A stretch of DNA of 64,000 nucleotides. Source: an uncultured Geobacteraceae bacterium. Its GTDB lineage: Bacteria; Desulfobacterota; Desulfuromonadia; Geobacterales; Pseudopelobacteraceae. Shown piece after piece: positions 20,281 to 44,146 of this stretch. Each line of letters starts with the position of its first letter. Position 1 is the stretch's first letter. A program made the translations under genes and the position numbers. The notes under the pieces were generated by a model that worked only from the letters and a program-made list of their open reading frames with translations, was not told where the DNA came from and ran no database searches. The stretch is from NCBI GenBank assembly GCA_903875605.1, contig CAIQWT010000097.1, positions 62,001 to 126,000 on the forward strand, read 5' to 3'.

Positions 20281-21867
20281 CTATTTAAATGCGGGATCTG
20301 CCTGAAAGCCACAGAGACTGGCGATCATTGAAGAATCAGGAGTCGGGTCTATATGCGGAATTTTGCTCTGTCCACCAAGCTTGCCACGTTCCAGTTGTGA
20401 CCATTGATAGATGCCGTCTTCCGGCATCAACATCACAACAGGTGCGTTGATGCGCCCCTGACTCCTGAATGCGGCATAATCGGCATTCAGCTCACACAGG
20501 GTAGCATCAAGTATTCGAGTCGCATCAGCAACATCCACAACATCCTGCACTGCCAGCACCCATTGGTGTCGCCGCGCCGGAATATCTGCCCCGACCATGA
20601 ACTCGCGTACATTCCAGTGATCATTTAGATTGAGATTGGCAACGGCCAGTTCTACCTCAGCCTGAGTGACCTTCTCCTCCAGTTTATCAAGGAATCTGTC
20701 TCGACCGGTGAACTCGATATAGTGAGGAGACGTTGCGGTAAAGCAGATCGTGTCACCGATATGGTAGCGCCACAACCCGGAGCATGTGCTGAGGATGACT
20801 GCATAGCGCTGGCCAGTTTCAACCTCCTCAAGCGGTATTGCATCCGCAAAGGGAGCCGGTTTCCCCTGGCTATCCAGATCTTCAAAGCGGACAAATTCAA
20901 AAAAAGTCCCGTAATACGGGGTCAGGCGCATCTGCTGCTCGCCAAATTGCTGAAACGCCATAAACGCTTCGGATGAAGGGAGCAACTCCAGCAGATGCGG
21001 CAGTCTGCCTTCAAAAAGATTTTCCAGTTCATTCCTGTACGGCTTAATACTGGTGCCGCCATGGATTATCAGTTCAAGATTCGGCAGTAGTTCATGAAGA
21101 GGTTTCCCGCTGATCTCCCCACAGCGTTTCAACAGCAGAATGATCCAGGGAGGCACACCGGAGATAACGCGGATATTGTCATCACGCAGCAACATCTCAG
21201 CCATGGCCTGCAGTTTTTCTTCCCAGGGGAGTGCGGATATTACGGCACCAGGCTCTACAAAGGGAGTGAGATAACAGGGACGAAAACGGAGTGTAAGGGC
21301 ACTCATGTCACCGGACCAGACTCCGCGCCTGACTTTGTTCAGGGTAGTTGATCCGGACATGTAAAGAATTTTGCCGTTCAGTATCTTTGATTCAGGATTT
21401 GCAGTTAGATAACACGCCATCATGTCGAGGGCGGCACGACGGTTTTCGGCGAACATCCGGCTTGAGAAAGGTATGAATTTGCTTGGAGCTGTTGTTCCTG
21501 ACGTTTCACAGAACATCTTGATGCTGCCAGGCCAGGTTATGTTGTCCAGATCAGGAGCTGAATGCCCTAAGGGGTCAGCGGCCTGATTGCCGTAGAAATA
21601 ATCCGTCATAAAATCATGATATGAGCGGATCGGCACATGACTTTTGTAGTAATTATAGGCAACGTCAAAGCGCCTGTTGTTGAGTCCGGCGAAGCTGTTA
21701 TCCCTGCCGAATTTTGTTGCAGACGCAGTCGCAATCAATTCATGAAATATCCGTTGCTGGGCAGCCAACGGGTCCTGTTTATTAAACTGAGTTGCCCGTT
21801 TTACTGCATACGAATGAAGTTGCTTCTGTAGTAAGCGGTTTTTTTGCAACCTTGCAATCATACCCAT
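20281..21867 (-). CDS. GH3 auxin-responsive family protein (acyl-amido synthetase type)
   Basis: 528 aa. Plant GH3 enzymes adenylate carboxylic acids and join them to amino acids. Conserved features here are an ATP-binding loop CETSGTTAPSKFIPFSS near 119-135, ILYMSGSTTL, a YHIGDT motif and the C-terminal hinge FTGRDRFLDKLEEKV. Bacterial members are widespread, with few known substrates. The ATG (21865-21867) follows immediately after the TAG of the upstream alpha/beta hydrolase gene, implying coupling. The acid and amine partners are unknown. Confidence 0.87.
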   Translation of the reverse strand: MGMIARLQKNRLLQKQLHSYAVKRATQFNKQDPLAAQQRIFHELIATASATKFGRDNSFAGLNNRRFDVAYNYYKSHVPIRSYHDFMTDYFYGNQAADPLGHSAPDLDNITWPGSIKMFCETSGTTAPSKFIPFSSRMFAENRRAALDMMACYLTANPESKILNGKILYMSGSTTLNKVRRGVWSGDMSALTLRFRPCYLTPFVEPGAVISALPWEEKLQAMAEMLLRDDNIRVISGVPPWIILLLKRCGEISGKPLHELLPNLELIIHGGTSIKPYRNELENLFEGRLPHLLELLPSSEAFMAFQQFGEQQMRLTPYYGTFFEFVRFEDLDSQGKPAPFADAIPLEEVETGQRYAVILSTCSGLWRYHIGDTICFTATSPHYIEFTGRDRFLDKLEEKVTQAEVELAVANLNLNDHWNVREFMVGADIPARRHQWVLAVQDVVDVADATRILDATLCELNADYAAFRSQGRINAPVVMLMPEDGIYQWSQLERGKLGGQSKIPHIDPTPDSSMIASLCGFQADPAFK

Positions 21868-22944
21868 CTAAACCGCCAACTTTAGACGTGGGTAAAGAAG
21901 TTTGCCGTACCAGCTCTCCAGTAGGGCGTTGTAAGCTTCATGGTGAAAGATGAGTGAAGCGTGGGCAACACCATCGCCTGCAATATGGGATCTCACTGTT
22001 TTTACCAGACAAGAGGGAAATAGTTTTGAATAGAGTGAGGAATCACCGAACATCTTCAGAGTTGGTGAGGATGAGACCAGAATATCCGATTCGTTTTCGG
22101 CAAGGAGCGTTAGTACCGGGCCGGAGAAAAGTGAACTGGACTCTAACGGAAAGATGAAATCCCGCAGTGCTGTAACTCTTTCAAAGCCGCCACGAGCGGT
22201 GGTGTATTCTATTACGTCATTTATTTTTTTTCGAATGGCAAGATGGCGAACGCTGAGAGTGCGGTTTTCAGCTCCGGCATTGAAAAGCGCTTGAAAACAA
22301 CGACGTGAGCGCTCTATCTGCTTACCTATCTCCGTCTCATTGGACGGGTCAGCAGCAACAATTTTTTTGAGATTACTTTCGAGTATTCTCAAACCGGTCT
22401 GTTTTTGATCACTCCGGCGAATAAGATCTTCGGTTGTGATAACCGGACTTACTAAAATCAGGCCACGAATTCTTTCATGCACCTGCTCATCAGCATTTTT
22501 CAGAAAGTTGGCGAGCAGACCGCAGCCAAAGCTGACCGCTAATATCAGAGGCTTTTGACCTTTTAGCGCGAGATCCTCAATCAAATCAGTCATTTGGGCA
22601 CTGAACATCTCCTTACAAAAACCATTACGTGCATAGTTTACATAGTAGATCGAGCCATGCTGGCGCAGTAATTTCCGTTGAAACTCTACCGTTTCAGTCG
22701 CGTCAGGAACAAAACCACCCAACACAATTGTCGGTACTGTTCCGGCGCCTTTTTCCCTGAAGATTTGACAGCGCGATTTGAGGGCCTCTTGCTTCCGCTC
22801 AAGAAGGGCAAACTCGCGGTGACGTAATTTGGGGGCGAAACGCTTGAAAGATATTCCGCGAATGAAACCTGCGGCAGCGGTGAATGCGGAGATCACCTGA
22901 CTATTGCCCTTCACAACCCGAAGTTTTGCCGTTCTGTCGCTCAT
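21868..22944 (-). CDS. Alpha/beta hydrolase-like protein
   Basis: 358 aa. A nucleophile elbow AVSFGCG fits the G-x-S-x-G pattern of alpha/beta hydrolases, preceded by a VLGGFVPDA strand/loop and followed by RGLILVSPVI. A late H-rich segment (SHIAGDGVAHASLIFHHEAY) may carry the catalytic His. ATG 22944 has TGGAGGACGT just upstream, better than ATG 22962. It directly abuts the GH3 gene, suggesting it releases or prepares the GH3 acid or conjugate; that is inference. Confidence 0.75.
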   Translation of the reverse strand: MSDRTAKLRVVKGNSQVISAFTAAAGFIRGISFKRFAPKLRHREFALLERKQEALKSRCQIFREKGAGTVPTIVLGGFVPDATETVEFQRKLLRQHGSIYYVNYARNGFCKEMFSAQMTDLIEDLALKGQKPLILAVSFGCGLLANFLKNADEQVHERIRGLILVSPVITTEDLIRRSDQKQTGLRILESNLKKIVAADPSNETEIGKQIERSRRCFQALFNAGAENRTLSVRHLAIRKKINDVIEYTTARGGFERVTALRDFIFPLESSSLFSGPVLTLLAENESDILVSSSPTLKMFGDSSLYSKLFPSCLVKTVRSHIAGDGVAHASLIFHHEAYNALLESWYGKLLYPRLKLAV

Positions 22945-23224
22945 ACGTCCTCCAGTTGTCATTTGGAGGTGATACTAGCATTGTCAAGTTACATCCATAT
23001 TGCGGGCGTGTGAATGTTTTGAAAATTTATGAGCTACTTTTTATCTACGCGCGCATCCACCCTTCGTTGTCTCTCTACTTCGCTAGAATAACAGCTCTCT
23101 TTGTTTTCTACTTGTCATTCGACAACCGATATGCCTAGATTGCTCCTCCTGAACCGGGTAAATACTTTTTAAAATAATGCGGCTTAAAAGCCGGCTTAAC
23201 CACGCAGTTAGTGGAAGGATTTCA

Positions 23225-25788: not shown

Positions 25789-26130
25789 ATGATTAGTCAG
25801 ATTGCAAGCGACTCATCTCAAGTTGTTACAGCTGTAGTCCAGCTTAACGCCATTGCTGAACAGATTGCTACCGGTGCTGAAGAAGTTGCAGCCCAAGCTG
25901 GTACGGTTGCTACAGCTGGAGAGAAAATGTCAGCTACAGGGCAGAGGTTTTGCGTTGGTTGCAGATGAAGTTCGCGCCTTGAAAGAGCGTACAACACGTG
26001 CGACCCGTGAAATTGTCGAAATGATTAAAGCCATCAGAAGGAAACCAAAAATGCCGTTACCGCTATGGAAATGGGAGTTCATCAGGTAGATGAGGGGACA
26101 GGAGAAGCGGCCAGAGCTGAGGATATTTAA
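25789..26130 (+). pseudogene. Decayed methyl-accepting chemotaxis protein fragment
   Basis: Two frames carry pieces of a chemoreceptor signalling domain. From 25789 the frame gives residues such as VVQLNAIAEQIATGAEEVAAQ, typical of a chemoreceptor coiled coil. After 25938 another frame gives GFALVADEVRALKERTTRATREI, matching the conserved region after the hairpin tip, and a third frame gives VHQVDEGTGEA. An internal part is missing between the first two pieces and frames shift at least twice. The 5' receptor part is absent. No function is expected. Confidence 0.75.
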
Positions 26131-27107
26131 GGTCTGTTCCGAATTGAAACCAATCTGTTTGGCGCAACATTTTCGCGGGCACACCAGAATTCTTCCAGTT
26201 CTTCAACAAGCAACCGGTCCAGTCCGGAATCCCTGATGAATTCTTCTCTTAATCCGGCATCACTCTGCGAAACAATTATGGGAAGCAACGTGTTCATGTA
26301 CATCAGGGAACTCTTTGCGAGCCGCAGACCGACGTCGAAAAGGCTGTCCGGGATATCCCCGTTGAGGAGCCGTTTGTGCCGCAACTCTATTGATACAATC
26401 CGCTTGATTGTATCCCGCTCCCCGTCGCCGGCCAACCACCCGTAACTGCTCCCGATTGCCTCCTGTAAGCTGGTCACAACACTAACTAGGATCTGTTCTT
26501 CCCGCTCTATCCGCTCCAAACGCTGTTGAATGTCATGTATGGTTCCCGTGTTCTGTGAAAGACATTCAAGGCCATCCAGAAGATTGGTTAAACGTTTCCG
26601 TCCCATCCTGCCCGGCAGGTCGCTGGCAATGAGATCATCAAGCAGCAATTCTCTGAAAAGCCCCGGCTTGATTGCGTTCAGCTCGTTCCAGCTGGCTGAA
26701 AGAACATTCAACGTTTCACTATCAGGAATACCGCGGGCAAAAAATACCATTTTATTGATGCGCCGGGATGCTTCCTCCATCCGGTGAAGTATATCCACCA
26801 AACGGTGAAAGTTCTTCCGTCCGGTTTTACCGGAAGCATTGGTATCATCAAGACGTTCATCGCAATAAGTACCGACATCGAGCATGAGTCGTTCAAAGCG
26901 CTGATCGTTCTGCTTAATTGCTTCTTTCTTCGCCAGAAGAATCGACAGGATAACAGAATCCGGGAGATCACTCCCGGCCGCAGTGGAAAACATGAAATAG
27001 GTCGCGAGCGACTGACGGGTCTGTTCAAGTGATGTCATGGCCATGATTTGAACCGGTATATATGATTCTGTTGGTAACGCATGAAGATTCATCGTCGGGA
27101 CAGCCAT
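26127..27107 (-). CDS. Uncharacterised helical protein (326 aa) downstream of pseudokinase gene
   Basis: I recognise no domain. The protein is mostly helical and charged, with repeated Leu/Arg-rich segments such as DILHRMEEASRRINKMVFF and LERIEREEQILVSVV. No signal peptide or membrane span is seen. ATG 27107 follows AGGG by 7 nt. The start overlaps the end of the kinase-PstS-OmpA gene by 19 bp, so co-translation is likely and a shared pathway is plausible. Its stop lies against the chemoreceptor remnant. Confidence 0.65.
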   Translation of the reverse strand: MAVPTMNLHALPTESYIPVQIMAMTSLEQTRQSLATYFMFSTAAGSDLPDSVILSILLAKKEAIKQNDQRFERLMLDVGTYCDERLDDTNASGKTGRKNFHRLVDILHRMEEASRRINKMVFFARGIPDSETLNVLSASWNELNAIKPGLFRELLLDDLIASDLPGRMGRKRLTNLLDGLECLSQNTGTIHDIQQRLERIEREEQILVSVVTSLQEAIGSSYGWLAGDGERDTIKRIVSIELRHKRLLNGDIPDSLFDVGLRLAKSSLMYMNTLLPIIVSQSDAGLREEFIRDSGLDRLLVEELEEFWCARENVAPNRLVSIRNRP

Positions 27108-29305
27108 ACTTCAACCCTGTTGTTGCGGATTTTTCCGTTCATGGAGCCGCCTTCCACAAGCTGCATGACCGAGCCCATACCCATTGCTACCGAGGGTTTT
27201 ACGCCTCGTGATGTCAATTCACCGCCCACCAGTTTTGCCCACTGTTCGCTAGTTTCTTTTGATTTTTTACCTTCGCTCGAATCGCTGAAGCCGAACAGCA
27301 TAACCTTGCGACCCTGCAGATCCTTACGCTCAAGGGAGTGGATCAGGCGATCGAAATCTCGACGGGAGCGGTTATCGAAGCTAATTGTATCGGGACGAAA
27401 CCTGATAGATAGCGAAAGGCGTTCCGCACCATCCACCATGTTTTTAAATTCCTGTGGTGTATTGTCAGGCAGTATTGGCGTTTCAGCACGTACCGCAAGA
27501 GAAACGAAACTGTTCTTTTCCACTATCTCCTGCCCGTCGTCTGAGAGGACAAACTCCATAAATTCTCTGGCCAGCGGGTTGGCTGTTTTGGGTGGGACAT
27601 ACATATAGAGACGGCGTGAAAGCGGATACTCTTCCCGCGCTACTGTAAAAGCATTCGGATAAATAGCCCCTCCGGACTCACCTGCTGCAATTGCCAGCGC
27701 TTTGCTGCTTTTTATATACGGCAGCCCTATAAAACCGATGCCATTGGGATCACCGGCTACATCGGAGGATAGCCGACTGCTGTCCTCGTATCGTTTGGCT
27801 CCTGAACCCAAACTCTTCTTGTCCAGAACCAGACTTTTAAAAGTGTCGAATGTTCCGGACTTGTCATCGCGGGCATACAGTTCTATCGGCTTGTCACTGC
27901 CACCGATATCTTTCCAGGAGCTGATTTCGCCGGCAAATATACGTGCAATAGTTTCCTTGCTTGCCGCAGCGAGCGGATTAGCAACGTTCACAACCACCGC
28001 CAGTCCGTCCAAACCAATAACATGCTCGCTCCCATAGCTGGTAAAATCTCCCTGAGCAGAGAGCTTGTCGCACTCCTCTTTCTTGATCGGGCGTGAGGAC
28101 ATGCCGATGTCACAGAGTGATTTTTCAAGGCCCTCATAGGCGGTACCGGACCCATGGGACTTAATTTCTACTGCCCAGGCTTTTGTTCCACCCATACTGC
28201 CGACGATTCTGATTTCTTCTTCTTTTGCGCCAGGTTCACGGCGGGTTTTGTGGGCTCCTTTACGCTTCAGAAACTCTTCAACCAGGGCCGGGGCCAGCTT
28301 GGCACCGATAGTATTGGAACCCTGCAGCCTGAGAACCGTTTCAATCCGCTCTGCAAAAAAGAAGTACCAGCCTCCCCAGGACAGAAGCATCAGCGTGGCG
28401 AAAGCGGAAACTCCGCGAAGTACAAATTTACGCAGGCGCCGTCTGCCTTCAGCAGCCTTGTGCTCTGCCTCGCGTGCAAGTTTATCACGATGTTGACAAC
28501 GTTCCAGAGCAGCAGAAAATTCGTCGCTACTCTGAAAACGATGGTCAGGCGATCTTGAAAGGGCGCGATGAATGATGCCAGCCAGCTCCTGATCAAGTTC
28601 GGGAAGCTTTTCGCGAATGTCGGAGATATCTTCCTCCATTTGCCGCATCAACTGGATAATGGTAGAACCTGCTTCTCGTGGTGGTTCACCGGTCAGCATC
28701 TGGTACATCAGCATACCGACAGAATATATATCGGAGCGATTATCAATTGCCTTGGGATTCACAATCTGCTCGGGACTCATATAGCCTGCAGCGGCAAAAA
28801 AGTTGGCGCTGCTTCCCGCTTCTGTGGGCATATGACTGGATGCGCCGAAGCCATCAAGCTTGACTAGACCGTTTTTTGCCACAAAAACGTTTGTGGCACT
28901 GACTCCCCTATGAATAATCCCGCGGCTGTGTGCAAACGAGAGCGCCTTCAACAGCTGCTTGATGACATGCAGTGTCGGCAGTTCCTTGCTGCCGCCGTGA
29001 TGATTGATAATCTCATCTAGACGGTACGCACCAAAGTGCTCCTGAACCAGATAAAAGACTCCCTCCTCCTCGAAAAAATCGATGGTTTGGAGAATATTTG
29101 TATGGTTCAAATGGGCAAGTTTTTTTGCTTCGGCATAAAAGCTGTCCCGTAGCTTAGCCGCATCGCCATTCTGTCCCCCCTTGAACGCCTTGATAAAATA
29201 TGAAACTCCTTTGGAAATGTCCTCAGCGAGGTAGAGCACCGTGCCATTTTCAAAAGTGGATATTTCTTGTTTCAGCATATATTTGTTCACAATCAGGCTA
29301 TTCAT
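27089..29305 (-). CDS. Pseudokinase - TM - PstS-like - OmpA fusion
   Basis: 738 aa. Residues 1-270 have a Ser/Thr protein kinase fold (lysine-like K39, GYMSPEQ at 174-180, SDIYSVGMLMYQMLTGEPP at 191-209). The catalytic loop reads HRG (132-134) instead of HRD, and the metal-binding DFG reads GFG (152-154); Asn139 is kept. A membrane span lies near 293-317. Residues about 323-590 form a PstS-like phosphate-binding domain (LQGSNTIGAKLAPALVEEF; ARDDKSGTFDTF). Residues about 615-738 form an OmpA peptidoglycan-binding domain ending NNRVEVW. The kinase part would be cytoplasmic and the rest periplasmic. Loss of both aspartates predicts no phosphotransfer. Confidence 0.88.
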   Translation of the reverse strand: MNSLIVNKYMLKQEISTFENGTVLYLAEDISKGVSYFIKAFKGGQNGDAAKLRDSFYAEAKKLAHLNHTNILQTIDFFEEEGVFYLVQEHFGAYRLDEIINHHGGSKELPTLHVIKQLLKALSFAHSRGIIHRGVSATNVFVAKNGLVKLDGFGASSHMPTEAGSSANFFAAAGYMSPEQIVNPKAIDNRSDIYSVGMLMYQMLTGEPPREAGSTIIQLMRQMEEDISDIREKLPELDQELAGIIHRALSRSPDHRFQSSDEFSAALERCQHRDKLAREAEHKAAEGRRRLRKFVLRGVSAFATLMLLSWGGWYFFFAERIETVLRLQGSNTIGAKLAPALVEEFLKRKGAHKTRREPGAKEEEIRIVGSMGGTKAWAVEIKSHGSGTAYEGLEKSLCDIGMSSRPIKKEECDKLSAQGDFTSYGSEHVIGLDGLAVVVNVANPLAAASKETIARIFAGEISSWKDIGGSDKPIELYARDDKSGTFDTFKSLVLDKKSLGSGAKRYEDSSRLSSDVAGDPNGIGFIGLPYIKSSKALAIAAGESGGAIYPNAFTVAREEYPLSRRLYMYVPPKTANPLAREFMEFVLSDDGQEIVEKNSFVSLAVRAETPILPDNTPQEFKNMVDGAERLSLSIRFRPDTISFDNRSRRDFDRLIHSLERKDLQGRKVMLFGFSDSSEGKKSKETSEQWAKLVGGELTSRGVKPSVAMGMGSVMQLVEGGSMNGKIRNNRVEVWLSRR

Positions 29306-29666
29306 AGTTTAGTCCTTGCTGAGTATACGTATTGGATGCAGGATGTTTCCGAAGTGGAAACATAGCAAAAGCAAGGTTACATCGGGGTGTCAAGTTGGTT
29401 AAATGTTATTTAACGTCTACAGAGGGAGAATTGCAGGAGCAATCCACATATATTCCTGTATCAGGCTTTTTGGCATACATGGGGTGGGAATCTAGATCAA
29501 GCCGTGAACCCAAGGCAGGGCTCCCGGTTTTTTGTCAGAGTTTTTCATAGAATATCATCAGAGATTGGAAGCACAGCAAAGCAAATCGAGGTTGCACTGG
29601 AGGTTGTAAATTCGAATTTAAACAAAAATAAGGGCTGCGATATAAGCCGTAACCCCTTGAATTTTA
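29306..29666. other. Upstream region of pseudokinase gene, no gene seen
   Basis: About 360 bp between the pseudokinase start (minus strand) and the tRNA-Pro 3' end. No coding frame with a ribosome binding site was seen. It should contain the pseudokinase promoter, but no clear -35/-10 pair could be chosen. Confidence 0.4.
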
Positions 29667-29929: not shown

Positions 29930-30547
29930 CTAATAAAAAAACTGCCAATTAGTTGATATCTCGTTGAACGTAGAGCTATTGTTGACTCGTTCGATCTTCC
30001 CAGAAACTGCAACAGAATGATTCCTGTAAATCTGCCAACCGGATGTAATTTCAGCTTTCTTAATTAGTTTGCTGTCGCCATTTGCGAGATATGACATAGC
30101 TCCAATAATATTTACATAATAACCATTACTAAATGATTTTAACAACCCGGACTCGACACCTGGGCCTACTGCAACGGTATTACTAAAGGCATCTCCAGCA
30201 AAGATTGAGCCAGTGACCATAAAGTATGTTTTGCCCAACATGCCACTTTCCACCGCCTTACCACTCCCAGCAATAGCCTGAAACGACATCGGAAAAGTAT
30301 CATTTCCAATATAGTTCCGATTACCACCTAAATAGAAAGACCAAGACCATGGTGAGATGAATGAATTAGACGTAGTGATAGATTTCGTACTGATAACATC
30401 AAATCGCTCAAAATAAACTTTGAGATCCGACATATTAATGCGTCCAGCTATTTCAAGTAAACGTAACTCTGAAGCAGCAGGATAGCCAATTGGTGGTTCA
30501 TTCAATCCGTAATATGCGGGTCGGATATGTAAATTTAAATTATGTAC
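29930..30547 (-). pseudogene. 5'-truncated DUF4105 (Lnb-like) gene remnant
   Basis: The frame carries only the C-terminal half of a DUF4105-type outer-membrane protein: RPAYYGLNEPPIGYPAASEL, then KVYFERFDVIS and SPWSWSFYLGG, which I recall from the C-terminal barrel region of that family. The homology-like frame runs past the only candidate start (TTG at 30505) to about 30547 and then meets unrelated sequence and a stop; the N-terminal catalytic part is absent. A short start-to-stop product is possible, but the gene as a whole looks broken. Confidence 0.65.
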
Positions 30548-31446: not shown

Positions 31447-34400
31447 TTAAAATGACTTTTCGGTGTAACTGCGAATTAGTTTACTGTCCAGCACTTCACG
31501 CACCATGGTCGCCATATTCGGCAACGAGAACGGCTTCTGAATGAAATGCACACCTTCATCAAGCACGCCGTGTTGTGCGATGATATCGGCAGTGTAACCG
31601 GACATATAGAGACACTTGAGTTGCGGGTTTAGTGACTGAAGTTTGTTAGCCAAATCCTTGCCATTCATTTTCGGCATTATCACGTCAGTTATGAGTAGAT
31701 TGATCTCTCCAGCGTGTTCATGTGCCAGGCGTATGGCTTCGTCGGGCGTTCCAGCAGTCAGCAGGGTATAGCCCTGCATTCCGAGTAATAGAGAGGTTAT
31801 TTGCAATATACCCGGCTCGTCTTCCACTAACAGGATTGTCTCCTGACCTTTTGGTAGTGGTGCGGCCTTTGCTTCAGTCTGAGATTTTTGGCTCTTCTCC
31901 TCTAGCCGTGGGAGATGGATTGTAAAGGTTGTCCCCATTCCAGGTTCGCTGTAGATGTTGATGAACCCGTCGTTCTGTTTGACAATACCGTACACAGTGG
32001 CCAACCCGAGTCCAGTACCTTCACCGACTCCTTTAGTTGTGAAAAATGGCTCAAATACACGGGCCATTGTTTCCTTGTCCATACCGCTACCGTCGTCACT
32101 GACACTCAAATGCACGTAATCACCGGGAACCGCTTCCGGGTTTTCTTCACAATAGCTCGAATCAACGGTATTATTCCGGGTCTCAATGGTGATGCGCCCG
32201 GTGCCGTTGATGGCATCTCTGCCATTGACGCAGAGATTGGCAAGAATCTGGTCTATCTGGCTTGGATCCGCTTTTATACGCCACAGGTCTGGAGCAGGTT
32301 GCCACGTTAGTTGAATAGACTCTCCTATCAATCGCCGCAGCATCTTAAGCATGCCATTGATGACTTCATTCAGGTCTATGTTTTTCGGTGCAATCGCCTG
32401 CTTTCTGGCAAATGCCAGTAGTTGCCTGGTAAGATCGGCAGAACGTTCTGCCGTCTTCATAATTTCTGTAAGATGCTCACATACGGGGTGATTTATATCC
32501 GACTCCATGAGGCCAAGCTGAACGTGTCCCATAATAACCGTCAGCATGTTGTTGAAGTCATGAGCCACACCACCGGCCAGGCTCCCGATCGACTCCATTT
32601 TCTGAACTTGATGTAACTGCTGTTCAGCCTTGTGTTGTTCTGTTATGTCAAGTGCAATGGAAAGAAGTCTTTGCTGCCCGGTTACCGATATAACCTCACC
32701 CCAGTATTTACAGAGCTTTGTCAGCCCTGCTTTAGTGTGCAGAGATAATTCCTGACCTTGTATTTTCCCCTGTTGCTGGATGCTTTCTTTCAGTCGCATC
32801 CTGTCAGCTTCTGAAATCCAGCCAAGCTCAACGGATGTCTTACCGATAACCTCTTCCCGACTGAATCCGGAAATATTCTGGAATTGCTGATTGGCATCCA
32901 GATATGTGCCGTCCTCAATGCTGCTGATGGTGATCATAATCGGCGCACTGTTGAATGCTGTGATGAACAGCTCGTTGCTTTCGGATAATGAGTCCTGCAT
33001 TTGTTTCCGCTCAGCAATATCCCAGGCTAGGTCTGCAAAGCGATAGGCAATAAGCACATCCTCTTCACTGTATTCTGAGGCTTTGTTGCCAATGCCTAAG
33101 ATCCCTACAATTTTGTCGGAGCGCAAGATCGGTACGGCCAGTTCACGGGTCACGGTGGCGTGACCCGGTGGCATCCCCTTGCGGTGGGGCAGTGAGGCAT
33201 AATCGTTGTGGATGACCGGTTGTCGCTGGTGGATGCAGTCAACCCATACTCCGGCCTTATCAATGTCATAATGGCTGCCTGCACCTTCTGCTTTGCAGAA
33301 ATCTCTGGCGGTCCGGGTGGACCAGGCATGCAGCGTCAGGGTGCGCTGATCTTCTTGTAGCAGATGGAAGTACCCGATCTGGCTGCCGGTCAACTCTTCT
33401 ATCTGATCAAGTGTTGCGGTGAGTAGTTCATTCAGGGTGTGTGACAAAGAGTATTCGACAAGGTAAAGTCTGGCAGCAGCCAACCGCTCTTCTTTCTTTT
33501 GGCGGGTGATATCCTTAATCATCGCTATAAAATGTTTGGGCGAGCCATCCTCGTTTCGTACGCACTTGACAGAGAGATCTGTATGTATAATCCCGCCTTC
33601 ATTCCGTATGAATCGCTTCTCAATCTGGTAACCATCGATCTCTCCATGAAGCACTAACTGGAATTGTGCCTCATCTGCAGCGAGATCATCGGGATGCGTC
33701 AACTCCGCCCAGCTTTTGTTTGAGAGCTCTTCTTGAGTGTAGCCCAGCATTGAGCACAAACAGTCGTTGCACTGAACCCATCCCTTCTCTAGGGACGTAA
33801 TTGCCATTCCGATGAGGCCGAGTTCGTAATAGCTTCTGAAAAGTGCCTCGCTCTCGTGCAGCGCTTCATCAGCCAGTTGCCGCTCCAGCTCACCGGCGGC
33901 ACGTTGAGCAATGTACTGTAGCACCGTTTCCACCAACTGCTGGTTTAGAAAAGGTTTTTCTCCGATCAGTGCAATTAGGCCGATCGGCTCTTCGTTTTTC
34001 CCATACAGAGTGATACCAGCGTAGCTTTCGGCTTTGATCTCCCGCAACACCGGATCGTTGGGGAACAGATTGGCGACATCGCGCGGGAAACAGCAGATGG
34101 TCTTCCCCACCACGTCACCGCACGGTGTGTCTTTCAGGGCATAGTCAACATTGTCCTCAAACCTGCCGTTGTGATAGACCGCCACAGTGTGCGCCATAAG
34201 TCCGTCGCCGGTCAGGCGGTCGATGCAGGCAAACTCCATCGACAGAGTCTCAGACAGAAAGCGCGCCAGCGCCGGGAAGAACTCTTCTTCCCATAAGCAC
34301 CAACCACGTTCAGAAATGAACGACTGGACACTCTCGATGGTTTTCCGGTTGGTGATGTCTTCCACGCTTGACCATATATATTTTTCGCCTTTACGTTCTA

Positions 34401-35688
34401 TCAGCAAACCCTGCAGTCGGACAGGTACAAGATGTCCATCCTTATGGATATATTCTTTTTCATACGGACCGTACTCACCCGCCGCCTTAAGCGCCGTCAA
34501 CTGTTCCTGTTCCTGTAAAGCATATTTTTCAGGTGTTATATCCCAGTAAGTCAGATTAAACGCTTCATCAACAGTTCTGCCAATAATATCGGCATACGCC
34601 TGATTTACATCTACCAATTTGCCGTCTATTTGAGTAAGCGCAAGACCGATCGGTGATTGGTCGAAGAGCATCCGGTTATATGCTTCACTTTCTCGCAGAG
34701 CTTCCTGTTCTTCTTTAAGTTCAATGGTGCGAAGTTCGACCTGCCTGTGCAGCAATTTGTTCCAGAGGAAACTTCCGATTAACAACGAACAGATAACAAA
34801 AAGCGCGCTGCCAACTACAGCCCTAAAACGCCAGTCAGTAAAAATATCCTTTTGAGCCGATTGAATCCATCTGTCTTGAATTCTATGCCGCTCGGTCTCA
34901 GTGAAAGAAGTAAGAGTCTTCTGAAGGATTTTGTGCAGCGTAGTTTTTGATCGAGGAACCGCAATCGAAAGCTGTATGTTCTGGGACGCTTCACCCGCTA
35001 CCCGCAGATTTGTAATTCCTTTCTGAGACAATAGATAGGATGCCGTTGCAAGATCAATAACAGCAGCATCTGATTGTCCGAAAGAAACATTCAGGATAGC
35101 TGTAAGATCGTTTGGAACTATATCAGCCACTATGCCGGTTTCTGTTTTTGAAAGGTGCTCAGTGATGGCATAGCTTTTAACAAGTGACACTTTCAGTCCA
35201 GCAAGATCTTTCTCAAGCATATTGCCTGATCGATCATTACGCACAATAATCACGTTCGGTACGGTGATGAACGGTTCTGTAAACGAGAGAAATTCCGATC
35301 TGGATGGTGTTTTTGTTATCGCGTTGACAATTAGGACTTCACCACTGCGAACTTTAGAGAAGATTTCATCTAGAGTTGAGAATTGTTTCCGTGAGAAGTT
35401 GACTCCCAACTTTGATTCAAGCTGGAGCAGATAATCGTGGGCGAGGCCTGATGGGTTGCCTTTTGAATCGAGGAATGCGAAAGGAGGATAACCGGTTTCG
35501 ACGGCTAGGACTATACCGGACTTGTTTTCATTGAGCCAGATTTGTTCTTCAGGGGTTAAAAGGTTATTGCCACCACAATGCGCAGCAGTCGAAATAATTA
35601 TAATCAAAAGGACTGATGACAGAAGATAGCGGCATGTTTTTGTGAAGATACCGCCTGATATTAAAGGAGCTATGATTAGTGCGTTCAA
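31447..35688 (-). CDS. Large hybrid histidine kinase: SBP_bac_3 / PAS / GAF / HK / receiver
   Basis: About 1413 aa. The order is: a hydrophobic N-terminus, a periplasmic SBP_bac_3-type binding domain (ETGYPPFAFLDSKGNPSGLA), a membrane span near 297-320, PAS, GAF, PAS, GAF, PAS, then a HisKA/HATPase core with SLAGGVAHDFNN (His1043) and GVGEGTGLGLATV, and a receiver domain with LLITDVIMPKMNG (Asp1335). It should autophosphorylate and pass phosphate to its own receiver. TTG 35688 is chosen because AGGAG lies 5 nt upstream; an ATG in the longer frame has no signal. It stands alone, so the final regulator is elsewhere. Confidence 0.88.
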   Translation of the reverse strand: MNALIIAPLISGGIFTKTCRYLLSSVLLIIIISTAAHCGGNNLLTPEEQIWLNENKSGIVLAVETGYPPFAFLDSKGNPSGLAHDYLLQLESKLGVNFSRKQFSTLDEIFSKVRSGEVLIVNAITKTPSRSEFLSFTEPFITVPNVIIVRNDRSGNMLEKDLAGLKVSLVKSYAITEHLSKTETGIVADIVPNDLTAILNVSFGQSDAAVIDLATASYLLSQKGITNLRVAGEASQNIQLSIAVPRSKTTLHKILQKTLTSFTETERHRIQDRWIQSAQKDIFTDWRFRAVVGSALFVICSLLIGSFLWNKLLHRQVELRTIELKEEQEALRESEAYNRMLFDQSPIGLALTQIDGKLVDVNQAYADIIGRTVDEAFNLTYWDITPEKYALQEQEQLTALKAAGEYGPYEKEYIHKDGHLVPVRLQGLLIERKGEKYIWSSVEDITNRKTIESVQSFISERGWCLWEEEFFPALARFLSETLSMEFACIDRLTGDGLMAHTVAVYHNGRFEDNVDYALKDTPCGDVVGKTICCFPRDVANLFPNDPVLREIKAESYAGITLYGKNEEPIGLIALIGEKPFLNQQLVETVLQYIAQRAAGELERQLADEALHESEALFRSYYELGLIGMAITSLEKGWVQCNDCLCSMLGYTQEELSNKSWAELTHPDDLAADEAQFQLVLHGEIDGYQIEKRFIRNEGGIIHTDLSVKCVRNEDGSPKHFIAMIKDITRQKKEERLAAARLYLVEYSLSHTLNELLTATLDQIEELTGSQIGYFHLLQEDQRTLTLHAWSTRTARDFCKAEGAGSHYDIDKAGVWVDCIHQRQPVIHNDYASLPHRKGMPPGHATVTRELAVPILRSDKIVGILGIGNKASEYSEEDVLIAYRFADLAWDIAERKQMQDSLSESNELFITAFNSAPIMITISSIEDGTYLDANQQFQNISGFSREEVIGKTSVELGWISEADRMRLKESIQQQGKIQGQELSLHTKAGLTKLCKYWGEVISVTGQQRLLSIALDITEQHKAEQQLHQVQKMESIGSLAGGVAHDFNNMLTVIMGHVQLGLMESDINHPVCEHLTEIMKTAERSADLTRQLLAFARKQAIAPKNIDLNEVINGMLKMLRRLIGESIQLTWQPAPDLWRIKADPSQIDQILANLCVNGRDAINGTGRITIETRNNTVDSSYCEENPEAVPGDYVHLSVSDDGSGMDKETMARVFEPFFTTKGVGEGTGLGLATVYGIVKQNDGFINIYSEPGMGTTFTIHLPRLEEKSQKSQTEAKAAPLPKGQETILLVEDEPGILQITSLLLGMQGYTLLTAGTPDEAIRLAHEHAGEINLLITDVIMPKMNGKDLANKLQSLNPQLKCLYMSGYTADIIAQHGVLDEGVHFIQKPFSLPNMATMVREVLDSKLIRSYTEKSF

Positions 35689-36588
35689 GGTATCTCCTAA
35701 TAAAATACGCGCGCTGAAAAGCGAATGACGCCGCTTTGTATGGGCACTAATCAGAATAATAGCCGCCAGTGATACTGTCTGCATGATATTGCTTTGTCTG
35801 CCGGTGTATGTCGTTTTACTACCAGACACAGTTTTGAAACAGGATTTTGAAATTTAATTATATCTTTATTCCAATGGATTACAATCCGAAAAGCCGAAAC
35901 AATTTGCTGGAAATCACCGGTAAACTGAATATTCAGAACCATTGATCCATAAGGGTATCGATTTTATTTTGGCTGCAGCTTCATACCTGGCCACCCGAAA
36001 CTGAGAATACAGAGAAATGGGGACATTATAATGATACATACGTAGAACTCCCAGCATCACCCGTCAGAGTGCCTTTTTGCATTTCCGGCCAACAGATCTG
36101 ATCCATCGGAGAAATCAGACACAACGCACGCTACAGAAAGGAGGTGACCCCACATGAACCACGCCGCAATAGTCCGCCATTTATCCGGCCTCACCGATCC
36201 CACCGCAGTTCTCTACTCCGTCATCTTGTAACCAATAATTCAATAGTAAGAAGTTCGTCTGCCTTCTTGGTCAATAGCGATCCTGAAGGCATTTTTTTGG
36301 CGACTGATCCGGTCAATCGAAGAAACCGGACAATACGTAAGCCGCTTACTGGCGGTGTCCCTCAAGGTCGTAATCGGATTCATAGTATTTTGGGTCTGCT
36401 CATGCTCTGGATTCAGAACCGTAAACCGTAACCTGCTAACAACATGCATCCATCACATTCCATTTGTCATCCATATAGAGGCATCTGTAATTCACACAAA
36501 TCTGACCCTGTGAAAATAACAGAAATTGCACCTACTAATAAGGTCATATGCTGTTTATATTCAATTCATCGGGCAAGGGGAGGTTTTC
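35689..36588. other. Long intergenic region, one micro-ORF
   Basis: 900 bp between the hybrid kinase start and the MocR stop. Apart from the 25-codon micro-ORF at 36154-36231, listed separately, no frame has both a start signal and a recognisable protein. A minus-strand frame at 36240-36449 was judged chance. The region could include degraded sequence or a non-coding RNA, but nothing specific is seen. Confidence 0.4.
36154..36231 (+). CDS. Micro-ORF with a perfect ribosome binding site (25 aa)
   Basis: AAAGGAGGTGA, a full match to the anti-Shine-Dalgarno end of 16S rRNA, lies 9 nt before ATG 36154. The peptide MNHAAIVRHLSGLTDPTAVL plus five residues ends at TAA. It resembles nothing I can name. 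It could be a leader peptide, a small protein, or the start of a gene broken soon after. Confidence 0.35.
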   Translation: MNHAAIVRHLSGLTDPTAVLYSVIL

Positions 36589-43231: not shown

Positions 43232-44146
43232 ATGAGTGAAATAATAAAGCAGCAGATAAAAGACCTTCTCAAAGAGCACAATGCTGTGCTGCTAGCCCAC
43301 AATTACATGCGTGATGAGGTACAGGAGATCGCTGACATCACCGGAGACTCTTTGGCGTTGTCCATTGAGGCTTCCAGAACTGATGCCGATGTTATTGTTT
43401 TTTGCGGCGTACATTTTATGGCTGAGTCTGTAGCGATATTGTCACCAGACAAGAAGGTACTGCTCCCACGCCCGGACGCCGGCTGCCCCATGGCCGACAT
43501 GGTTTCGGCAGAAGACCTTGAGTTGCTGAAGGCCCGCCACCCGGGAGTCCCTGTAGTAACCTATGTCAATTCATCGGCAGCGGTAAAAGCTCATTCCGAC
43601 ATCTGCTGTACATCAGCCAATGCTCTTAAGGTTGTAAGATCACTTGAAGAGAATGAACTGATCTTTGTGCCTGACCGAAATCTGGGACGCTGGATTGCCC
43701 AGTTCGTTCCGGAGAAAAAGTTTATTTTCTGGGAAGGATTCTGCCCGACTCATGAGCGGATGACTGTAGCAGCGGTACTGCAAAAGAAAGAGGAACATCC
43801 GGATGCACTCTTTATCTGTCACCCGGAAAGTGCTCTGGAAGTTTCAGCATTAGCCGATCATGTCTGCTCCACGAGCGGAATGTATGATTACTGCCGCACC
43901 AGCCAGGCTAAGAAATTTATCGTCGGCACGGAAGCCGGCATTCTCTACAAACTACGCATGGACAGCCCTGACAAAGAATTTATACTGGCCTCACCGGCAC
44001 TCTTCTGCCCCAACATGAAGTTGACCTCACTGGAAGATGTACTTATTTCACTCCAGACTCTGGCGCCGGTCATCAGCGTACCGGAAGATATCAGGCTTAA
44101 GGCCAAGACGGCACTTGATCGTATGCTGGCAGTGCCTAGGGATTAG
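43232..44146 (+). CDS. nadA: Quinolinate synthase
   Basis: 304 aa. NadA condenses iminoaspartate with dihydroxyacetone phosphate to quinolinate in de novo NAD synthesis. The three cluster cysteines are visible (C85 in [10 protein letters not shown]171 in FCPTHE, C259 in FCPNMK), with the active-site pieces [16 protein letters not shown] and [17 protein letters not shown] precedes the start. No nadB or nadC lies nearby; the gene is probably monocistronic between its promoter and a strong hairpin. Confidence 0.96.

Follow-up and report, generated by a model that had tools for sequence, protein, structure and literature searches.

An uncultured Geobacteraceae bacterium (NCBI GenBank assembly GCA_903875605.1) carries, in a stretch of 64,000 nucleotides of contig CAIQWT010000097.1 (positions 62,001 to 126,000; in the following, the window), a gene for a 738-amino-acid protein that consists of a predicted pseudokinase, a probable transmembrane segment, a PstS-like domain and an OmpA-like domain (27089..29305, ATG at 29305; this and all features given below with start and end coordinates lie on the minus strand). 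The protein, here termed the receptor, could well be a phosphate receptor linked to the Pho regulon, with docking as its mode of signalling, a reading whose chances we regard as evenly balanced. It is drawn from the presence of phosphate-starvation genes nearby, a conserved partner gene and the loss of catalytic residues, which together suggest that the receptor probably reports phosphate status by docking.

The original prediction, made from the letters of the window, had placed a kinase, a membrane span, a PstS-like and an OmpA-like domain in this order, and profile searches recovered the same order, with the membrane span predicted from hydropathy. The kinase-like domain (residues ~8-270; 28496..29284) matches Pfam Pkinase at residues 19-258 with 124.6 bits (cut-off 31.7), and the nearest solved structures by sequence are PknB-type kinases (E ~1e-29, ranging from 2e-30 to 2.5e-28); the NCBIfam model PknB_PASTA reaches 177 bits, below its cut-off of 450. 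The PstS-like periplasmic binding domain (residues 323-606; 27488..28339) agrees with the ectodomain alignment, scores over the cut-off for Pfam PBP_like_2 (115.9 bits at residues 379-589, cut-off 27) and has phosphate-binding PstS proteins as its nearest solved structures by sequence (best E 6.7e-24), which confirms the earlier assignment; the best NCBIfam PstS model (TIGR02136) gives 173.6 bits, below its cut-off of 206.6. The Pfam match of the OmpA-like domain (residues 636-728; 27122..27400) is 0.1 bit short of the cut-off (27.1 versus 27.2 bits). The probable transmembrane segment (residues 299-317; 28355..28411) is a hydrophobic stretch that follows an Arg/Lys-rich flank; the topology is a prediction, since the most hydrophobic 19-mer of the chain starts at residue 429, within the PstS part. 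An AlphaFold model of the receptor, computed from a two-row alignment, was of no use (pLDDT 34), and PADLOC matches on the window were taken as generic kinase-domain matches.

A search for the full domain order, suggested alongside the original prediction, revealed the architecture in 9/141 genomes of the order: in the window genome, G006 and G001 of the window's genus (3/39 genomes) and in G125, G129, G130, G133, G137 and G138 of one sister genus (6/15), with the receptors of G133 and G137 interrupted by contig ends. No further kinase-PstS-OmpA protein was found in the class (277 genomes, order included) or in a sample of the phylum (395 genomes); more members may exist, because full scoring was limited to seven candidates per genome in the order, three in the class and two in the phylum sample. 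When GTDB contigs were scanned with the window protein, by a tool that finds close relatives only, the G006 copy was the only receptor returned. The G001 contig (L078, G001:C49) has a size of 5.8 kb and is 97% identical at the DNA level to the G125 region over 5767 bases, and is thus likely a contaminant or a very recent transfer. The G001 homologue was therefore set aside as independent support; it is still counted in the nine motif rows, in the trees and as the receptor without partner in the 8/9 given below. No paper on the pseudokinase-PstS-OmpA combination was among the matches listed in a literature search mostly confined to journals without subscription, which agrees with the original prediction, in which this combination had been described as not known.

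Alignment to PknB structures places G134 at the position of the HRD Asp, S136 at that of the catalytic-loop Lys, N139 at that of the Asn and G152 at that of the DFG Asp. HRD is thus replaced by HRG (residues 132-134; 28904..28912) and DFG by GFG (residues 152-154; 28844..28852), and K39, E59, N139 and SPE are retained, all of which, apart from E59, had been read correctly before. The codons are AAG for K39, GGA for G134 and GGC for G152. An 80%-identical homologue from an independent genome (L005, which shares a contig with L034) also has HRG and GFG, which in practice rules out the sequencing or base-calling error that had been raised as a possible cause of these codons. According to the accessible text of PMC12599244, a pseudokinase is a kinase fold without one or more of the Lys, the HRD Asp and the DFG Asp; the window domain has a kinase fold by homology, has lost at least one of these residues and is, by sequence, a pseudokinase.

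Comparison of the homologues revealed which of these losses are shared. The HRD Asp is replaced by Gly in all nine receptors, the window included, and the beta-3 Lys (K39) and the C-helix Glu (E59) are present in 9/9. GFG is found only in the window and G006, DFG being kept in the other seven; the window, G006 and G129 retain the catalytic-loop Asn, which is replaced by Ile in the remaining six. In the G129 receptor (HRGLKPSN...DFG), the Asp is the sole loss among the tabulated residues. The motif table comprises 65 kinase rows, 40 of them distinct, from loci that are part of the kinase matches listed, and HxD and DFG are present in all 31 other distinct kinase domains of the compared loci. 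A tree of the 40 kinase domains groups the nine receptors in a single clade (support 100/99), whose stem has a length of 0.97 changes per column. Since Gly is found in 9/9 receptors and these form one clade, the HRD Asp was, most simply, lost once, before the receptor copies of the two genera split. The sequences thus identify loss of the HRD Asp as a family trait and, since DFG is intact in 7/9 receptors, GFG as a later, clade-specific loss; the other losses differ by branch. The earlier claim that both catalytic aspartates are missing therefore holds for the window protein, and only the HRD part of it extends to the family: close homologues with intact motifs, which had been named as evidence against the claim, were found for DFG (7/9) and not for HRD (0/9).

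The receptor is under purifying selection. A comparison of the window and G006 copies gave dN/dS values of 0.054 (kinase domain), 0.058 (PstS part), 0.107 (linker and OmpA part) and 0.264 (juxtamembrane and membrane segment), ratios that are rough because dS is near saturation. The kinase domains are 85% identical and the domain is as constrained as the PstS part; these values disfavour a reading of the gene as a pseudogene.

The most likely partner of the receptor is encoded by the next gene (26127..27107), which overlaps the receptor gene by 19 bases in the window and encodes a short TIGR04442 protein of 326 amino acids (NCBIfam, 182.2 bits, cut-off 150) that corresponds to the C-terminal half of the family only. 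TIGR04442 was matched in 123/141 genomes of the order, mostly as one full-length gene, and in 0/14 control genomes. The short form was found in the window genome (G000), G006, G125, G129, G130, G133, G137, G138 and G134, that is, in 8/9 receptor genomes, the exception being the doubtful G001, versus 1/132 other genomes of the order; Fisher's p is 2.5e-11 with and 3e-12 without G001, with kinship ignored. Split pieces of full-length genes (G022, G058, G086, G110) and a 128-aa fragment (G102) were excluded from this count. The short gene and the receptor gene are adjacent in the window and G006; they are ~0.6 (G129), 2.5 (G138) and 3.5 kb (G125) apart in three others, in G137 the short gene lies ~7 kb from the C-terminal fragment of the receptor, and in G130 and G133 the two are on separate contigs. 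A structure model of the TIGR04442 protein was all-helical and poor (pLDDT 59), and none of the 95 matches of a PDB search with it reached an E value of 0.001 or better. The family is named in no paper found by the same literature search.

Sequences upstream of the receptor genes are suggestive of control by PhoB. The E. coli PHO-box consensus gave no clear signal at the receptor; a lineage-specific matrix, which performed better and was chosen after this result and the upstream sequences had been seen, was built from 17 pstS promoter sites (of 21 looked at; three from the sister genus) with at least 11/14 matches to CTGTAAC-N4-CTGTAAC. With this matrix, a weak PHO-box-like site (29376..29393, score 10.27) was detected 88 bases upstream of the receptor start, which ranks 7/127,966 among the window positions, with a chance expectation of 0.021 in the 300 bases scanned. 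The G006 receptor has a site of 15.39 at -82 (chance expectation 0.006), and the window and G006 share the conserved block AACTTG-A/T-CACCCC-G/C-ATGTAAC amid a diverged region. In the sister genus, the scan covered the region in front of the inferred operon, which starts with a chemoreceptor or GGDEF-EAL gene and was delimited by close spacing on one strand, and sites were found in G125 (14.8 at -68, expectation 0.019), G129 (10.79 at -85, 0.017), G130 (11.11 at -61, 0.016) and G138 (17.71 at -69); the G138 value refers to the start taken from an aligned homologue, and an upstream start codon gave 0.62. PHO-box-like sites are thus present in all six receptor or operon promoters scanned out of nine, G001, G133 and G137 having been left out.

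The genomic setting also points to phosphate. Upstream of the window, its contig encodes PhoU, PstB, PstA, PstC and PstS, all over their cut-offs, as well as a PhoR/WalK-like histidine kinase and a PhoB-like regulator, both under theirs. The PstB gene is separated from the receptor gene by 42.7 kb in the window genome and by 13.8 (G125), 13.9 (G138) and 22.1 kb (G129) in the sister genus, and the two are on different contigs in G006, G130, G133 and G137. Between pst and the receptor gene, the window, G125, G129 and G138 contain a gene pair for a GH3-like enzyme and a hydrolase, which was seen near the receptor by BLAST in G138 and G130 and from ORF starts in G125 and G129. The best match of the window GH3-like enzyme (20281..21867) is OlsH, a lyso-ornithine lipid synthetase (326 bits, equivalog cut-off 620). 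The alpha/beta-hydrolase-like protein (21868..22962) is OlsI-like by position only; it has a Ser_hydrolase match under the cut-off and no NCBIfam match, and homologues with 53-55% identity lie near the receptor in L073 and L074. A PHO-box-like site (22988..23005, score 12.26, rank 3/127,966) is located 43 bases upstream of the pair, and the G129 pair has a site of 11.23 at -59; in G125 and G138, the sole good site is shared with a divergent operon and lies far from the hydrolase gene. The pair (20281-22962) may therefore be a phosphate-controlled pair for ornithine or other amino lipids. In the accessible part of PMC12493201, a planctomycete produces ornithine lipid by means of OlsH and the hydrolase OlsI, with the remark that OlsH homologues in other organisms might act on different amino acids. 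Desulfovibrio alaskensis responds to phosphate limitation with a rise in ornithine lipids, made by an OlsF homologue, and both these lipids and the Pst system are important in Desulfovibrio when phosphate is limiting (PMC5193443, available text). Two other genes of the window were noted: one for a 1460-aa hybrid histidine kinase with SBP_bac_3 sensor, PAS, GAF and receiver domains (31447-35829), and a TTG-started ORF of 191 amino acids with a DUF7840 match that lacks the first 38 model positions and is possibly truncated (29930-30505).

The ectodomain module of ~414 amino acids recurs with other N-termini in other classes of the phylum (E 1e-130 to 1e-155). Two wider searches listed 12 non-kinase PstS-OmpA proteins (8 + 4) and one 241-aa fragment, and the N-termini were read in ten of the 12, with G171 and G176 left out. 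Some are roadblock-like, with Robl_LC7 scores of 16.9 and 18.6 bits in the two scored (under the cut-off of 23) and the others assigned by eye; those of G352, G317 and G427 are, by eye, Cys-rich and zinc-ribbon-like, with no Pfam match for such a domain in the two scored; and that of G602 has a receiver match of 25.3 bits (under the cut-off) and a DUF4388 match of 32.9 bits (over the cut-off). The N-terminus of G213 was assigned to none of these types. The same ectodomain thus carries other, apparently non-catalytic N-terminal domains. A gene for a DUF4388 protein immediately precedes two roadblock-like PstS-OmpA genes (G174, G230), as it does in L100 and L101, and genes for an HD-domain protein, a CheW/dCache protein and a PstS-like protein come next in L100. 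A Tubulin_2 gene lies one ORF from two zinc-ribbon-like PstS-OmpA genes (G352, G427); the Cys-rich PstS-OmpA genes of L102, L104 and L107 are all near tubulin-like genes, assigned to Tubulin_2 by Pfam in L102 and L104 and by eye in L107. G174 and G175, both roadblock-like, and G176 have a second PstB gene at a distance of 10-12 kb from the one for PstS-OmpA; PstS-OmpA and PstB genes are on different contigs in G167, G171, G213, G225, G317, G352, G427 and G602. The roadblock-like gene-pair promoter of G174 has no site with the lineage matrix.

In a tree of 17 ectodomains, the seven pseudokinase rows form one group (support 99/98), and ten pocket-type positions (330-332, 386, 399, 479, 480 and 483-485) are identical in 17/17. 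The motif R-x-D-x-S-G-T with an upstream Ser and Asp, which we take to be the PstS phosphate site, is present in the window (R479, D481, S483-T485, S386, D399), where the matching residues presumably have the same binding role. In the OmpA-like domain, Asp675 is invariant in 17/17 ectodomains; the usual Arg is a Trp in the window and G006 only (W689, 27239-27241) and an Arg in the other 15. This Asp and Arg presumably bind diaminopimelate, the Arg usually being needed for peptidoglycan binding, and the earlier description of the domain as peptidoglycan-binding was thus too strong for the window protein and its closest relative.

Taken together, the PstS-like ectodomain would bind phosphate or a close analogue in the periplasm, and the ligand state would pass through one membrane helix to the cytoplasmic kinase-fold domain, which, without the usual phosphotransfer, would dock or release a dedicated partner in the cytoplasm, for which the short TIGR04442 protein is the most likely candidate. 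PhoB would induce the receptor gene alongside the pst operon and phosphate-free lipid synthesis. Ligand-dependent docking is the simplest reading, since the ligand would be outside, a single helix would connect it to a dead kinase fold inside and a probable dedicated partner is encoded next to it; the apparently non-catalytic domains found at the same place in other lineages support docking. The phosphate setting, the partner gene and the sharing of the ectodomain are additions to the original prediction.

Several observations weigh against this reading. The site at the window receptor is weak, 10.27 bits versus a mean of 22.7 for the 17 pstS sites, and is outscored by six other window positions, two of them within ORFs; the strong matches at 43428 and 52502 lie inside ORFs, which we take to be NadA-like and DnaX-like, and were taken as chance. 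Directly upstream of the receptor gene, the best scores in the four sister-genus operons are -2.1 to 4.8. The pst genes lie 14-43 kb away, a loose linkage that inherited synteny could explain, and in G230, a six-contig assembly, the PstS-OmpA gene and PstB are on different contigs. Adjacency of the partner gene to the receptor gene is confined to the window and G006; elsewhere the partner gene is close by or on another contig, and G134 keeps the locus and the short TIGR04442 gene without a receptor gene, an apparent clean loss; in this locus (L112, G134:C120), the gene order, judged by ORF starts, and the PHO-box-like operon promoter are retained. Position 481, which we take to match Asp137 of E. 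coli PstS, is Asp in all seven pseudokinase rows and E, N, H or S in the ten other ectodomains; because this residue varies, the ligand may differ among the relatives.

The kinase fold might instead keep an unusual chemistry, such as Mg-independent phosphotransfer, AMP transfer or glutamylation. The retention of K39, E59 and N139 in the window would fit this, and CASK, which also has GFG, is a Mg-independent kinase. SelO and SidJ are further kinase folds with other chemistries according to the available text of PMC12599244. However, the HRD Asp is lost in 9/9 receptors, the Asn is replaced by Ile in 6/9 and the catalytic-loop Lys is a Ser in the window, so that the Lys and the Glu are the sole tabulated catalytic residues kept family-wide, and we consider such a chemistry unlikely. 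The domain could also act on an active kinase as its allosteric or decoy partner, in the manner of the pseudokinase HER3, with the TIGR04442 neighbour being incidental. PknB-like kinases dimerise through the N-lobe, and one further Pkinase match, an open frame of 1821 amino acids with HKD and DFG, was found in the window genome; this sole other match, however, sits on another contig, and the conserved neighbour of the receptor is TIGR04442 and no kinase, which makes an allosteric role quite unlikely.

Two other explanations dispense with cytoplasmic signalling. If the receptor were mainly a periplasmic phosphate trap or envelope anchor with a passive cytoplasmic plug, invariant pocket residues would be expected to persist while the N-terminal parts are swapped between lineages, as is the case; but the kinase domain, with its dN/dS of ~0.05 and 85% identity, is constrained like the PstS part, and the loss of the OmpA Arg makes anchoring doubtful in the window clade, so that this role, too, seems improbable. 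A decay of the window copy, which would so far have cost it two catalytic residues and the OmpA Arg, would agree with the co-occurrence of HRG, GFG and the Trp in the window and G006, but is very unlikely given an intact frame in both genomes, dN/dS values of 0.05-0.11 outside the membrane segment and a conserved promoter block.

A phosphate receptor signalling by docking would resemble several known systems in part. PknB-type Ser/Thr receptor kinases, which are among the best structure-sequence matches, share the N-terminal kinase domain, one transmembrane segment and an extracytoplasmic sensor; in the receptor, the catalytic Asp and other residues are missing and PstS-OmpA replaces PASTA. 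In the accessible text of PMC12599244, EssB/YukC is a membrane-bound dead kinase domain that works by scaffolding, the role proposed here, but in the context of type VII secretion, with other motifs and with no PstS-OmpA part named. The families of O'Boyle et al. 2025 described in this text (ActPs1-3, GLW, CP1, DYD and DLHK) have likewise lost canonical motifs, and a P. aeruginosa DLHK protein also has GFG (PMC12599244, Table 1); by these descriptions, the receptor family is set apart by a retained beta-3 Lys together with a lost HRD Asp, and PstS, OmpA and Geobacter are not mentioned in the text as available. PstS-OmpA proteins encoded near FtsZl1/Tubulin_2 genes have the same PstS-OmpA module as the receptor but a Cys-rich N-terminus; OmpA-family proteins in FtsZl1 operons have been published, in a paper whose accessible text does not name PstS (PMC2875224). 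With PstSCAB-PhoU-PhoR, the receptor shares a PstS-type binding domain and the Pho setting, but it joins ligand domain and cytoplasmic output in one chain that contains neither transporter nor histidine kinase.

The functions of bacterial pseudokinases are mostly unknown, and the receptor offers a likely ligand, regulon and partner, as well as graded relatives that range from G129 (HRG, other tabulated motif residues intact) to the window (HRG and GFG), which makes the role of a dead bacterial kinase testable. Tentatively, and with somewhat less than even confidence, the family may represent a one-chain phosphate-sensing route beside PhoR/PstSCAB, in which a constant PstS-OmpA head is combined with swapped non-catalytic adaptors and partners encoded nearby (the TIGR04442 short form, the DUF4388 protein, Tubulin_2), and in which a former receptor kinase lost catalysis stepwise, HRD and then Asn or DFG, thereby becoming a phosphate-gated docking platform. 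The exchange of cytoplasmic domains on one ectodomain would also indicate that phosphate receptors outside the PhoR pathway form a general class.

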